Shown: positions 4,304 to 24,335 of the stretch, piece after piece
How positions within the stretch are numbered: the stretch's first letter is position 1
Layout: each line of letters begins with the position of its first letter
Source of the DNA: a virus
Virus record (IMG/VR): IMGVR_UViG_3300048592_001396
Span: 1-24,335 of that record
Direction: 5' to 3' (one strand)
DNA: 24,335 bases
Translations under genes and position numbers: made by a program
Notes under the pieces: model-generated
Databases searched by the model: none
Seen by the model: only the letters and a program-made list of their open reading frames with translations
Told to the model about the DNA's origin: nothing

Positions 4304-4379
4304 TTACATCTCCTGCTTTATAATTATAAATTATTTTATTATTCATTTTTCATTTCTCCTTTTTATTTTCGCTTCTTCA

Positions 4380-4421
4380 CCTGTCCGCTGTGGCGGATTG
4401 ATCATTGAGCATTTAACATTA
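4380..4421. repeat. short dispersed repeat at the integrase 3' end
   Basis: CCTGTCCGCTGTGGCGGATT contains the hairpin TCCGC-TGTG-GCGGA and is followed by an ATCATTGAGCATTTAACATT tail. An almost identical unit, with CCGTGG in place of CTGTGG, lies at 16224 beside the large terminase, and a hairpin-only copy is at 13529. The last bases reach the integrase stop codon. Confidence 0.6.
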
Positions 4422-5423
4422 TAAAAGCCCAACCGCATCTCTCATATCATCCATTCCAACGTGTGTATACGCCATAGTAGTCTGGATGTTCGCGTGGCCT
4501 GCAATTCTCTGAACAGATGGCACATTAGCACCCTTTAATATCATTCCCGTAATACTACCGTGGCGGATACTATGGAAATGTATCGCTTCATCAATACCAG
4601 CTTTTCTGCTGGCTTTCTTAAACTGCTTTGATAGATAATCAGCAGTAAAACAATAACCACTGCTCTTGCAAAAAACATATCGCTTTTTGTCCGGCAATTG
4701 AACCAAATTAATTTCACATCCATCAGCTTCATTCCTTTTGACTTTTGACATTTGACTTTTGCCATTTCTTAAAAGAATTTCTTTAACCTTCGGATGAATA
4801 GGGATCACTCTTTGCTTGCGGGTTTTAGTTTTGAAGTTTTCGTTACCGATTGTAAGTAGATCTTTTTTCAGATTAACATCCTGCCAGGTTATATTCACAA
4901 CTTCACCCCGTCGTAAGCCTGTATAAAAAGTTACAGCAACCATATCCCTTATAACCTCGTTCTCTATAAACGGCATTATTTTATAAAGCATCTCTTCAGT
5001 TAAATGGGCTGCCCTCAAGTTTTGTCTTTTGGGTAGTTCAACTTGTTCAAAAGGATTTGAAGAAACATAATTCCATTTGATCAGCTTATTCCACATTGTT
5101 CTTGCCGTCTTACAGTAATTATATACAGCTTTAGGTGCATTCTTTTTTAACGTATCAAGAAAGCATTCACAATCTCTAAGCATTATCGTTCTTAAGTCTC
5201 GGTTTGCAGGAAAGTATTCCAGTAAATACTTGCAAACCAGCTTCACACCTTCAAGCGTCTTAGGTGCTCTGTTATGACTAACAAAACTCAAATACTCATT
5301 TACACCACGTTCAAGAGTAATAACAGCATTACTACAGACCTGGCCATCCCCCAGAATGGCCGCAATCTGTAATAACTTTTCAAGTTTGTCTTTATCTATA
5401 TTTTGTAATGCTTCTAAATCCAT
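4419..5423 (-). CDS. tyrosine recombinase / integrase
   Basis: This 334-residue site-specific recombinase has an N-terminal SAM-like core-binding domain (residues about 35-125) and a C-terminal catalytic domain. Visible catalytic residues are Arg171 in TGLRRGE, a Lys in the FKTKTRK hairpin (about 198-203), His284 and Arg287 in HSIRH, His310 in AGH, and the nucleophile Tyr319 in MAYTHV. It presumably integrates and excises the element. ATG at 5421-5423 is preceded by a weak AGAAGAAG. A 57-aa gene lies upstream and the primase downstream, all on the minus strand. An extra stretch at residues about 220-230 (MSKVK) derives from a TTTTGAC-type simple repeat. I found no convincing direct-repeat att pair in the window. 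Confidence 0.93.
   Translation of the reverse strand: MDLEALQNIDKDKLEKLLQIAAILGDGQVCSNAVITLERGVNEYLSFVSHNRAPKTLEGVKLVCKYLLEYFPANRDLRTIMLRDCECFLDTLKKNAPKAVYNYCKTARTMWNKLIKWNYVSSNPFEQVELPKRQNLRAAHLTEEMLYKIMPFIENEVIRDMVAVTFYTGLRRGEVVNITWQDVNLKKDLLTIGNENFKTKTRKQRVIPIHPKVKEILLRNGKSQMSKVKRNEADGCEINLVQLPDKKRYVFCKSSGYCFTADYLSKQFKKASRKAGIDEAIHFHSIRHGSITGMILKGANVPSVQRIAGHANIQTTMAYTHVGMDDMRDAVGLL
4735..4762. repeat. TTTTGAC simple repeat inside the integrase gene
   Basis: Three near-copies of (T)TTTGAC follow one another and are read in frame as the QMSKVKR region of the integrase, between the catalytic Lys and His motifs. This is where a surface loop would be tolerated. Confidence 0.4.
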
Positions 5424-16194: not shown

Positions 16195-16223
16195 TTAATT
16201 CCTCTTTGTTCTTTCATTGAAAA

Positions 16224-16265
16224 CCTGTCCGCCGTGGCGGATTGAACATTTAACTTTTAACATTT
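16224..16265. repeat. short dispersed repeat at the terminase 3' end
   Basis: CCTGTCCGCCGTGGCGGATT and its A/T-rich tail (GAACATTTAACTTTTAACATT) match the unit at 4380. The tail overlaps the end of the large terminase gene, so the terminal codons (RNVKS and the stop) appear to be supplied by the repeat. Confidence 0.6.
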
Positions 16266-21218: not shown

Positions 21219-22556
21219 ATGAAATATTTCTTTATCATATTTTTAATTCTGTTTTTAGATTCATTCAGTCAATCGCTAACAAGTCCGTCAATCAAAACAA
21301 TTAAGCAATTCAACAATTCCCGCCATTCGCTTAGTATTAAGCAAAAGCAAATTTCACATATTACTGGTAATGGTACCGATGTCGATCCTTACATCTTATC
21401 CAAAGCAGAACACATAGATTCAATAAGATATCTTGGCCTTAATAATAAATACTATGAACTTGCTAACGATATTGATTGCTCATCTATCCCGGAATTTGTA
21501 CCAATCCCAAACGATAATAATTCAGGTACATTCTCACTTGATGGTAAAGGATACACTCTAAGTGGTATTAAACAAACAGCAGGTATTTATTCAGGCACTA
21601 CATCAGCATATACACTTGGTATATTTGCTGGCAAATCATCAGGTTCATTCAGGGTAAAGAATATTGTTTTAGATGGTATAAAAATCGTTAAGACCTCAAT
21701 TACAACTACAAGTGCCTTGGTTTTTTCAGCTTCCATTCTTGCAGCATACTTTTTAAATACAGAAGTTCAATTTTCAAACATCACAATTAAAAACTCAACT
21801 ATCTATTTTACTAATAGCCCAACTACTTTCCCTTCCTTATCCTATGTCGGTCTTTTAACAGCCAGGGCAAATGTAACTCCAACTGCCGGTAATCAATCTT
21901 TTATTCGATATTGCTTAGTTGAGCACGATACTATCCATTACTATTCTACATCTACGGGCCATTATATTGGCGGGCTTGTAGGTATCATTCCCGATGGTTC
22001 AGCCTCAATTCCATTTGAATATAATGCATCACGCTACAATTACTTTTATTCTCGTATAACTACAACTACACGCAAAAATATTGGCGGTGGATTGATTGGT
22101 ATTATTTCTTCACCCGGATCAACATTCAGGTATAACTATTCACATTCTAACGTAGCAGATTTTGGAAACGGTGGTGCACCCTATAATCATCCCTGGGGCT
22201 GGGGCGGAATATTTGGTTATGCAGGAACAGATAACATTCATACTTTTCATCAGAACTATGCAGCTAACAATCAATGCTTTGGTGTAAATCAAAGTGGCGG
22301 ATTTTACACTGCAGATAATTCAACAACTACTGCTCTAATTATCGATAGCACATATAATTTTTGTGATATTACAAGCTTCGCAGAACCAAACACAGTTTAC
22401 GGCTCAGTACGTTTGATAGCATCACAACACCCCGCTCCAAAAACATCATTGCAGCTAAAAGACATCAACACATACACCGGCTGGGATTTCACAAACACCT
22501 GGGCAATAGATTCAACTAAGAATGGTGGATATCCTTATCTAATCGCTTTACCTTAG
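21219..22556 (+). CDS. exported beta-helix protein with GLUG-like start
   Basis: This 445-residue protein has a signal peptide (residues 2-16, hydrophobic, ending DSFSQS). After a short linker comes GNGTDVDPYILSKAEHIDSI and YELANDIDCS (about 50-90), the typical entry of proteins with GLUG or right-handed beta-helix repeats. It continues with LDGKGYTLSGI, LGIFAGKSSGSFRVKNIVLD and several G-G-L-(V/I)-G-I-I turns (YIGGLVGII, IGGGLIGII, WGGIFGYAG). Such proteins are adhesins, glycan-binding proteins or fibre-like. The C-terminus (TWAIDSTKNGGYPYLIAL) is the usual closing repeat. ATG immediately follows the upstream TAA, with GAAGGCAGG as binding site. It could be host-surface cargo or a fibre-like protein of the element. 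Confidence 0.65.
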   Translation: MKYFFIIFLILFLDSFSQSLTSPSIKTIKQFNNSRHSLSIKQKQISHITGNGTDVDPYILSKAEHIDSIRYLGLNNKYYELANDIDCSSIPEFVPIPNDNNSGTFSLDGKGYTLSGIKQTAGIYSGTTSAYTLGIFAGKSSGSFRVKNIVLDGIKIVKTSITTTSALVFSASILAAYFLNTEVQFSNITIKNSTIYFTNSPTTFPSLSYVGLLTARANVTPTAGNQSFIRYCLVEHDTIHYYSTSTGHYIGGLVGIIPDGSASIPFEYNASRYNYFYSRITTTTRKNIGGGLIGIISSPGSTFRYNYSHSNVADFGNGGAPYNHPWGWGGIFGYAGTDNIHTFHQNYAANNQCFGVNQSGGFYTADNSTTTALIIDSTYNFCDITSFAEPNTVYGSVRLIASQHPAPKTSLQLKDINTYTGWDFTNTWAIDSTKNGGYPYLIALP

Positions 22557-22627
22557 TATTCTAACATATCCATAAAATGGATTGAACACTATTTTTATAT
22601 CCTCTTGACTTTCTACTTATTAAAAAG

Positions 22628-22634
22628 GTTATAC
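22628..22634 (-). repeat. isolated R-box-like heptamer at the array edge
   Basis: GTATAAC on the minus strand lies 17 bases after the stop of the 147-aa cassette gene, the same spacing as in the next cassette, where a full attC-like site begins with GTATAAC. No L box or hairpin follows it, so it may mark a truncated or broken site, or it may be chance. Confidence 0.25.
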
Positions 22635-23123: not shown

Positions 23124-23349
23124 GTATAACGGCTTTGTGCCTAACCCGCCGCCCATAACAGGAAAAACAAGCTATTTACAACAGCCAAAGTTTAAGCAAA
23201 CTGCACTTATCTTACTTTGCAAGTGCAGTTTACAAGTTAATTTATTTTTTAGAACACCTTTAACAAAAAACTATATACGTAACTACTAACCCGTAAATCT
23301 CTAAAATGCCGAGTGCGAATTGGCAGTCAGCTTGAGGCACTTGTTATAC
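23124..23349 (-). repeat. long attC-like recombination site 1
   Basis: Read on the minus strand it begins GTATAAC-AAG-TGCCTCAAGCTG and ends GGTTAGGCA-CAAAGCC-GTTATAC. The outer heptamers (R'' and R') are perfectly complementary, TGCCT(C)AA pairs with TTAGGCA leaving one extrahelical base, and the centre holds an 11-base perfect stem, AAACTGCACTT/AAGTGCAGTTT (23198-23208 and 23221-23231). This is the layout of an integron attC. At 226 bp it is longer than most described sites (roughly 60-150 bp). It begins 18 bases after the stop of the 102-aa gene. Confidence 0.7.
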
Positions 23350-23367
23350 AACCATTTAGTATTTATA

Positions 23368-23676
23368 TCATACAGGAACATCATTGATGTAAACATATAA
23401 TAGTTGATAAATACCAGTTACCATCAATATAGATATAAGAATAATTGCAAATAGAAACCTTATGCTATAATGCTTGTACTTAATCATACCATAAATATTC
23501 AATATCAAGAATGAAATACATACTGTTACTGAGCCGAGCATTAGAATAATCCAATATTCAAACAACATCTCATTATATACGATAGTATTAAAAATATATT
23601 TTACAAATGGCCAAATTAATCCAAATATTAGAATTGAAAGATTTAGAAAGTAAAGTATTTTAAAACTCGTTTTCAT
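23368..23676 (-). CDS. small membrane protein in integron-type cassette
   Basis: This 102-residue protein has three predicted transmembrane helices (about residues 7-28, 40-62 and 72-95), separated by short loops (FNTIVYNEMLFEY and KYKHYS). No catalytic motif or family signature is visible. ATG at 23674-23676 lies about 35 bases after the R' box of the upstream attC-like site and its stop lies 18 bases before the next, so gene plus following site make a cassette of about 588 bp. The function is unknown; a small inner-membrane protein is all that can be said. Confidence 0.65.
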   Translation of the reverse strand: MKTSFKILYFLNLSILIFGLIWPFVKYIFNTIVYNEMLFEYWIILMLGSVTVCISFLILNIYGMIKYKHYSIRFLFAIILISILMVTGIYQLLYVYINDVPV

Positions 23677-23711
23677 AAAACTTCAAAACTTAAACTTTAT
23701 AATCCCTTGTT

Positions 23712-23939
23712 GTATAACGGCTTTGTGCCTAACCTGATGCCCATAACAAGGATGCAGTATAAAGCACAAACATTAAATTTTTAGCCGAAGGTGCTTAACT
23801 TGTTTTCTCTTGACGCACCGAAGGCTGGTTAATTAATTTACAAAAACACCAAGAACAAAAAAGCCAAACTAAAACGAAATCTTAAAAACACAAATTAACC
23901 CGAACTAAAAAGGCATCCAGGTTGAGGCACGGGTTAGGC
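23712..23939 (-). repeat. long attC-like recombination site 2
   Basis: On the minus strand it starts GCCTAAC (fits RYYYAAC exactly), then CCG and TGCCTCAACCTGGATGCC, and ends GGCATCAGGTTAGGCA, CAAAGCC, GTTATAC. The two L arms pair fully except for two unpaired bases, both in the 5' arm, as the extrahelical bases of attC sites are. A central stem pairs AGCC and GGTGC with GCACC and GGCT around a symmetrical GAA/GAA loop (23783-23826). The length is 228 bp. The stop codon of the 133-aa gene lies inside the GCCTAAC box. Confidence 0.75.
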
Positions 23940-24335
23940 ATTTGCTAATTGATCTGGATAAATCTCAAATGCCAGTAAAGATTTATTAAGTAAAATTAAT
24001 CTTTTAAAACCACGATTAGACTTGTAAATAATTATTTTACCAAACTTTTTATGTTCTTTGAAATACTGTTTGTACTCAAGTCGAACACAATCTGCGTCTC
24101 TTACATTAATATAACCAGTGTATAAAGTACATCCTTTGGGGTTTTTAATAATAATTTTTGTTTCATTATCAAAATTCATAATCAGTTTATTATCATCAAC
24201 AGAAGAAGATTCGATTTTATAAACCCCATAAAAAGGTTTTCCGTGACAATCACCCCAAATTAAAATTGGTCCAATTTTGAGAGTACTGATTGATTCATTA
24301 ATCCTATTAGAAAATCTTATGATTTCGTTTTCCAT
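23934..24335 (-). CDS. hypothetical protein in integron-type cassette
   Basis: This 133-residue protein belongs to no family I recognise. It begins with an amphipathic helix (RFSNRINESISTL) followed by strands (ILIWGDCHGKPFYGVYKIES, KLIMNFDNETKIIIKN), so it is probably a small alpha/beta or all-beta cytoplasmic protein. An ATG occupies the last three bases of the window; a longer upstream extension cannot be excluded. The TAA stop is part of the R'' heptamer of the attC-like site, so gene and recombination site overlap, which is common in compact cassettes. Confidence 0.6.
   Translation of the reverse strand: MENEIIRFSNRINESISTLKIGPILIWGDCHGKPFYGVYKIESSSVDDNKLIMNFDNETKIIIKNPKGCTLYTGYINVRDADCVRLEYKQYFKEHKKFGKIIIYKSNRGFKRLILLNKSLLAFEIYPDQLANA

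Follow-up and report, generated by a model that had tools for sequence, protein, structure and literature searches.

Two unusually long, homologous attC-like sites bounding an orphan-gene cassette at the right end of a provirus record

Integron attC sites are described as 57-142 nt long (PMC2727003, PMC5371416), and those of sedentary integrons are mostly 120-129 nt (PMC2727003, PMC5371416) and alike in length within an array (PMC5371416). The length criterion is descriptive and not mechanistic, because removal of the 65-bp variable terminal structure (VTS) of the VCR, the attC site of the sedentary integron of Vibrio cholerae, had little effect (PMC2727003). In replicating DNA, long terminal structures cut recombination by up to four logs, whereas single-strand delivery brings no such loss (PMC8946536). 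Clusters of attC sites without IntI and attC sites in phages are already known, as is a Vibrio anguillarum prophage with attC sites on its flanks, and the attC sites of phage TJE1 recombine with IntI1 (PMC9892861). Chlorobi, Ignavibacteriae and Bacteroidetes include members with complete integrons, and integrons of Chlorobi, Ignavibacteriae and Salinibacter have been reported (IntegronFinder 2.0, PMC9024848).

Here, we present an analysis of two attC-like sites, A and B, at the right end of an IMG/VR virus record of 24,335 bp, the whole of which we refer to as the window (Table 1). Most of the window is a provirus, and we consider it likely that its host carries a sedentary (chromosomal) cassette array to which A and B belong as integron attC sites. 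Like the VCR, they have the R''-L''-VTS-L'-R' layout with an extra pyrimidine before the AA of L'', a large structured VTS, near-equal lengths among homologous sites of one array, and one small orphan gene per unit. Unlike the VCR and related sites, they are 226-228 nt long instead of mostly 120-129, have a 6-nt spacer on the R' side and the R' box GTTATAC, and are seen in the window without an IntI. They resemble the CALINs and phage attC clusters of Qi et al. (2023, PMC9892861) in that attC-type sites and small cassettes lie in or beside a phage without an IntI; they differ from those clusters in their greater length, in being part of a trimmed provirus record, and in that their array probably consists of host DNA. 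The new feature of A and B is thus their length, although longer sites may have been reported.

Table 1. Sites, genes and boundary features at the right end of the window
Feature	Position	Strand	Description
Zone with right end of provirus	22522..22627		Identity change relative to L003; loss of similarity to L004
GTATAAC box	22628..22634	-	17 nt after the stop of the 147-aa gene
Orphan gene, 147 aa	22652..23095	-	Follows site A; L003/L038 encode a 99% identical protein in this position
attC-like site A	23124..23349	-	226 nt; R'' GTATAAC 23349-23343; R' GTTATAC 23130-23124; L'' GTGCCTCAA, large terminal structure, L' TTAGGCAC
Orphan gene, 102 aa	23368..23676	-	Probably a membrane protein; without Pfam, NCBIfam or PHROG match
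attC-like site B	23712..23939	-	228 nt; R'' GCCTAAC 23939-23933; R' GTTATAC 23718-23712; L'' GTGCCTCAA with long L stem, L' TTAGGCAC
Orphan gene, 133 aa	23934..24335	-	Own 5' cassette end off the record

The initial annotation had described two long, related minus-strand sites that exceed most described attC sites, and both points are borne out: used as a single-sequence profile, A finds B with an E-value of 6.5e-11 over positions 3-226, and the two are ~60% longer than the longest attC site usually described. Site A had been located correctly; site B had been given as 23713-23940, one base off from 23712-23939. Identity between A and B amounts to 134 of 224 aligned positions and is highest at the L'-R' end (35 of 40), where a repeat finder reports the 42-nt arm as a direct repeat (88%). 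The middle is 50% identical, higher than in all 500 shuffles. The sites are therefore homologous over their full length and not at the arms only. The central hairpins, previously called different, are indeed present, but they occupy the same alignment position in A and B and show compensatory changes; 8 of 34 consensus pairs are changed on both sides, although with only two sequences such covariation is weak evidence. The presence of homologous long sites in a single array is in keeping with sedentary integrons, because the attC sites of these are alike in length (PMC5371416).

Along the gene strand, both sites are arranged as R''-spacer-L''-VTS-L'-spacer-R'. From 23349 to 23124, site A reads GTATAAC-AA-GTGCCTCAAGCTGACTGCC ... 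GGGCGGCGGGTTAGGCAC-AAAGCC-GTTATAC; from 23939 to 23712, site B reads GCCTAAC-CC-GTGCCTCAACCTGGATGCC ... GGGCATCAGGTTAGGCAC-AAAGCC-GTTATAC. The R boxes are complementary, with seven of seven pairs in A (GTATAAC/GTTATAC) and five of seven in B (GCCTAAC/GTTATAC), and AAC and GTT are kept in both. Relative to the strict consensus, R'' GTATAAC is one base off RYYYAAC and R' GTTATAC one base off GTTRRRY; GTATAAC is also the R'' of a site found in phage TJE1. The R-L spacer is unpaired, with 2 nt on the 5' side and 6 nt on the 3' side of both sites. The unpaired base noticed earlier in the 5' L arm is found in both sites, in which GTGCCT[C]AA faces TTAGGCAC and the extra pyrimidine lies right before AA; a second unpaired base, G in B and A in A (T on the bottom strand), lies 6-7 nt further inward. 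The extra pyrimidine is in the same register in attC sites that we extracted from a Vibrio integron in a phage, a Shewanella prophage, phage TJE1 and aadA7 (L033-L037), and unpaired L-arm bases of this kind have been described for attC sites (PMC2727003).

A loose scan for the R/L architecture gave ~3 hits per shuffled window, so that architecture alone is weak evidence. The L stem and R boxes of B score 14, and no hit of at least 12 was obtained in 100 shuffled windows. The score of A, 6.5, was matched ~2.4 times per shuffled window; its stem alone is therefore within chance, and the reading of A as an attC site rests on its homology to B. In single-strand models of the bottom strand, folds in which the R and L boxes pair are possible, but they account for little of the ensemble (0.001 in A and 0.0006 in B, compared with 0.009-0.21 in four known attC sites). 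For site A, the top strand is predicted to fold more stably than the bottom strand.

As the initial annotation had it, each site follows one small orphan gene: the R'' of A lies 18 nt past the stop of the 102-aa gene, and the TAA of the 133-aa gene sits inside the R'' GCCTAAC of B. The sites are in tandem and in the same orientation with one small ORF between them, giving one complete unit and two partial ones, and their polarity is canonical in that each lies 3' of a gene on the same strand. The complete cassette carries the 102-aa gene and extends between recombination points at ~23718 and 23130 as a unit of ~589 bp. Its R'' GTATAAC matches the bases at its own start, TTATAC, while the R'' GCCTAAC and R' GTTATAC of B disagree at two positions. 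Such a pattern would be left by recombination at R' between different cassettes, with R' contributed by the following cassette, as judged from one cassette. The GTATAAC box at 22628 is a possible R'' of an attC site of the 147-aa gene, cut off by the provirus end, although this reading is weak since the heptamer is over-represented in the window; a profile of A and B found no second half matching this box elsewhere in the window. In the whole window, GTTATAC occurs 12 times against 2.65 expected, a count reached in none of 100 shuffles, and few of the 12 copies fall within attC-like sites. The 133-aa protein has no relatives in IMG/VR or plasmids, and the AlphaFold models of two of the orphan proteins (mean pLDDT 43 and 57) are too poor for a fold search.

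We observed that identity to a second provirus record, L003, is ~91% up to 22521 and 99.65% beyond, with two mismatches in 574 bp, the 147-aa gene included. Similarity to the record L004 fades after ~22586-22619, and L004, L005 and L009 have different DNA at the place of the cassette region. Because of the identity jump and the other DNA in these three records, the cassettes are probably host DNA beside the provirus. Because the jump lies ~35 bp into the last phage gene, recombination between proviruses could also have produced it; moreover, sharing this junction with L003 does not show two independent insertions. Chlorobi, Ignavibacteriae and Salinibacter would be a plausible phylum-level setting for the AT-rich genome of the window, which is a guess on our part.

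The window contains no IntI, in agreement with what had been noted before: its only tyrosine recombinase, at 4419-5423, scores 58.6 bits against an IntI model with a cut-off of 265. The further description of the locus as a cluster lacking an integrase is not supportable, since the record is trimmed at gene edges and the absence is uninformative. Both record ends coincide exactly with ORF ends, as in proviruses excised from longer contigs by software, and so the array probably runs on beyond the record; an attI site would lie outside the window. On the attC reading, the bottom strand (the plus strand of the window) would fold into a hairpin, which would be recognised by an IntI encoded elsewhere on the host chromosome. 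This IntI would exchange strands in the GTT of R', and the complete unit with its gene would leave as a circle and re-enter at attI or at an attC site. Excision would be slow, as reported for attC sites with a long VTS, because the recombining fold is rare with a terminal structure of this length; slow sites would be in line with sedentary integrons. Several points count against reading A and B as attC sites, namely, their length, the lack of an IntI in view, the one-base departures of the boxes, the low share of the required fold, the more stable top-strand fold of A, the small number of units (two sites and one complete cassette), the reversed polarity of the relatives in the phage of L017/L049 described below, and the lack of a further copy in the cellular genomes searched.

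Further copies were sought in several collections. The exact arm is absent elsewhere in IMG/VR and has a single, chance match among 84,980 GTDB genomes; this match (L002, Burkholderiales) was rejected because it lies inside an unrelated coding gene and has no dyad. With one base left free, the IMG/VR scan returned nine hits, all attributable to chance and none with a second arm. L050, which has the motif and no dyad, was likewise rejected, and so was the second hit of the A and B profile, in L020 (E-value 0.043), which has no matching second arm. The DNA of the region has no relatives beyond chance in plasmids or phages. That the sites form a lineage-specific class, as first proposed, is thus plausible from the search of IMG/VR and these genomes. 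Relatives were found in a related phage (L017/L049; TerL 56% identical), but they point the opposite way to their genes, an orientation that the initial model had not predicted. In L017, the profile of A and B detects a ~186-nt relative (E-value 1.2e-6), and another full site in this phage is ~130 nt long, its L' arm being nearly that of site B. At L049:5778-11297 (the phage of L017:7615-12519 and L016/L047), these two complete sites accompany an array of ~ten small phage genes, most of which stop within an NNNTAAC box that leads into an L'-like arm (e.g., GTATAACGCTGTGGCGCTTAACCGGCGGC). These gene ends are attC-like half-sites in reverse polarity. Scored with the motif of the window, the ends of the ten-gene array lie above all TAA positions (p 7e-6, an optimistic value because the array was picked after sight), whereas the other gene ends of this phage are not above background (p 0.85).

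These relatives argue for the view that A and B are phage-associated bipartite gene-end repeats that resemble attC sites and serve phage gene exchange or expression, such that the cassettes would be phage accessory DNA and not part of a host integron. The full sites, the half-sites at most ends of the array and their enrichment there all favor this view; however, the rise in identity to L003 beyond 22521, the gene-edge ends of the record and the different DNA in L004, L005 and L009 speak for host DNA, and we give this view a small chance of being correct. It also largely merges with the attC reading, because phage-borne attC clusters are known (PMC9892861). In a related scenario, a long, bipartite attC-like family would be common to the cassette array of the lineage and to its phages, with the small phage genes of whole arrays ending in the motif in reversed polarity and with a provirus inserted in an attC site. 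We see a small chance for this scenario; if true, these phages and their host would regularly exchange genes by attC-type recombination.

A length of ~226 nt, inverted ends and two homologous copies would also fit a MITE, i.e., two copies of a non-autonomous element with imperfect terminal inverted repeats and a transposase encoded elsewhere. However, neither copy has a target-site duplication, the ends are unequal (2-nt versus 6-nt spacer, and an extra base in one arm only), and the outer boxes of B are mismatched to each other, a feature not accounted for by an inverted-end transposon. In addition, the two copies share one orientation, each sits at the 3' end of a gene, one of them containing the stop codon, and no copies were found in IMG/VR or GTDB, making a MITE improbable. 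Hairpins downstream of genes could alternatively be transcription terminators or other structured RNAs that act in the transcript and not in DNA recombination. We regard this as highly improbable because no terminator-like site was found in the region, there is no Rfam match, and termination does not need a conserved bipartite layout of 226 nt with conserved outer boxes.

If A and B are attC sites, their length has practical consequences. IntegronFinder has a default attC length limit of 200 nt, and the length limits of attC finders have been tuned on known sites (57-142 nt). Should sites of 226-228 nt be normal in some lineages, the integrons of these lineages would be missed and their arrays called orphan genes or parts of proviruses. 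Such sites would also allow a test of how far the length of the terminal structure slows recombination.

The remainder of the window encodes a tyrosine recombinase, a primase-polymerase, Qat-like defence genes, a Mu-type portal, terminase, protease and capsid, and one large enzyme with a weak methyltransferase match. Positions 1979-22600 form a ~20-kb element comprising the integrase, primase-polymerase, Qat-like defence, large restriction/methyltransferase-type and portal/terminase/protease/capsid genes; no tail genes were recognised, and the element looks like a capsid-forming phage satellite. No direct repeat marking the phage ends was found. A 42-nt direct repeat (ACCTGTCCGCTGTGGCGGATTGA..., 88% identical) is present at 4379-4420, beside the integrase gene, and at 16223-16264, between the portal and terminase genes. 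An inverted TTGGACGC ... GCGTCCAA motif at 1851-1926, with a matching end in L046, lies where similarity to a related phage stops on the left and is possibly the left end or attachment region.
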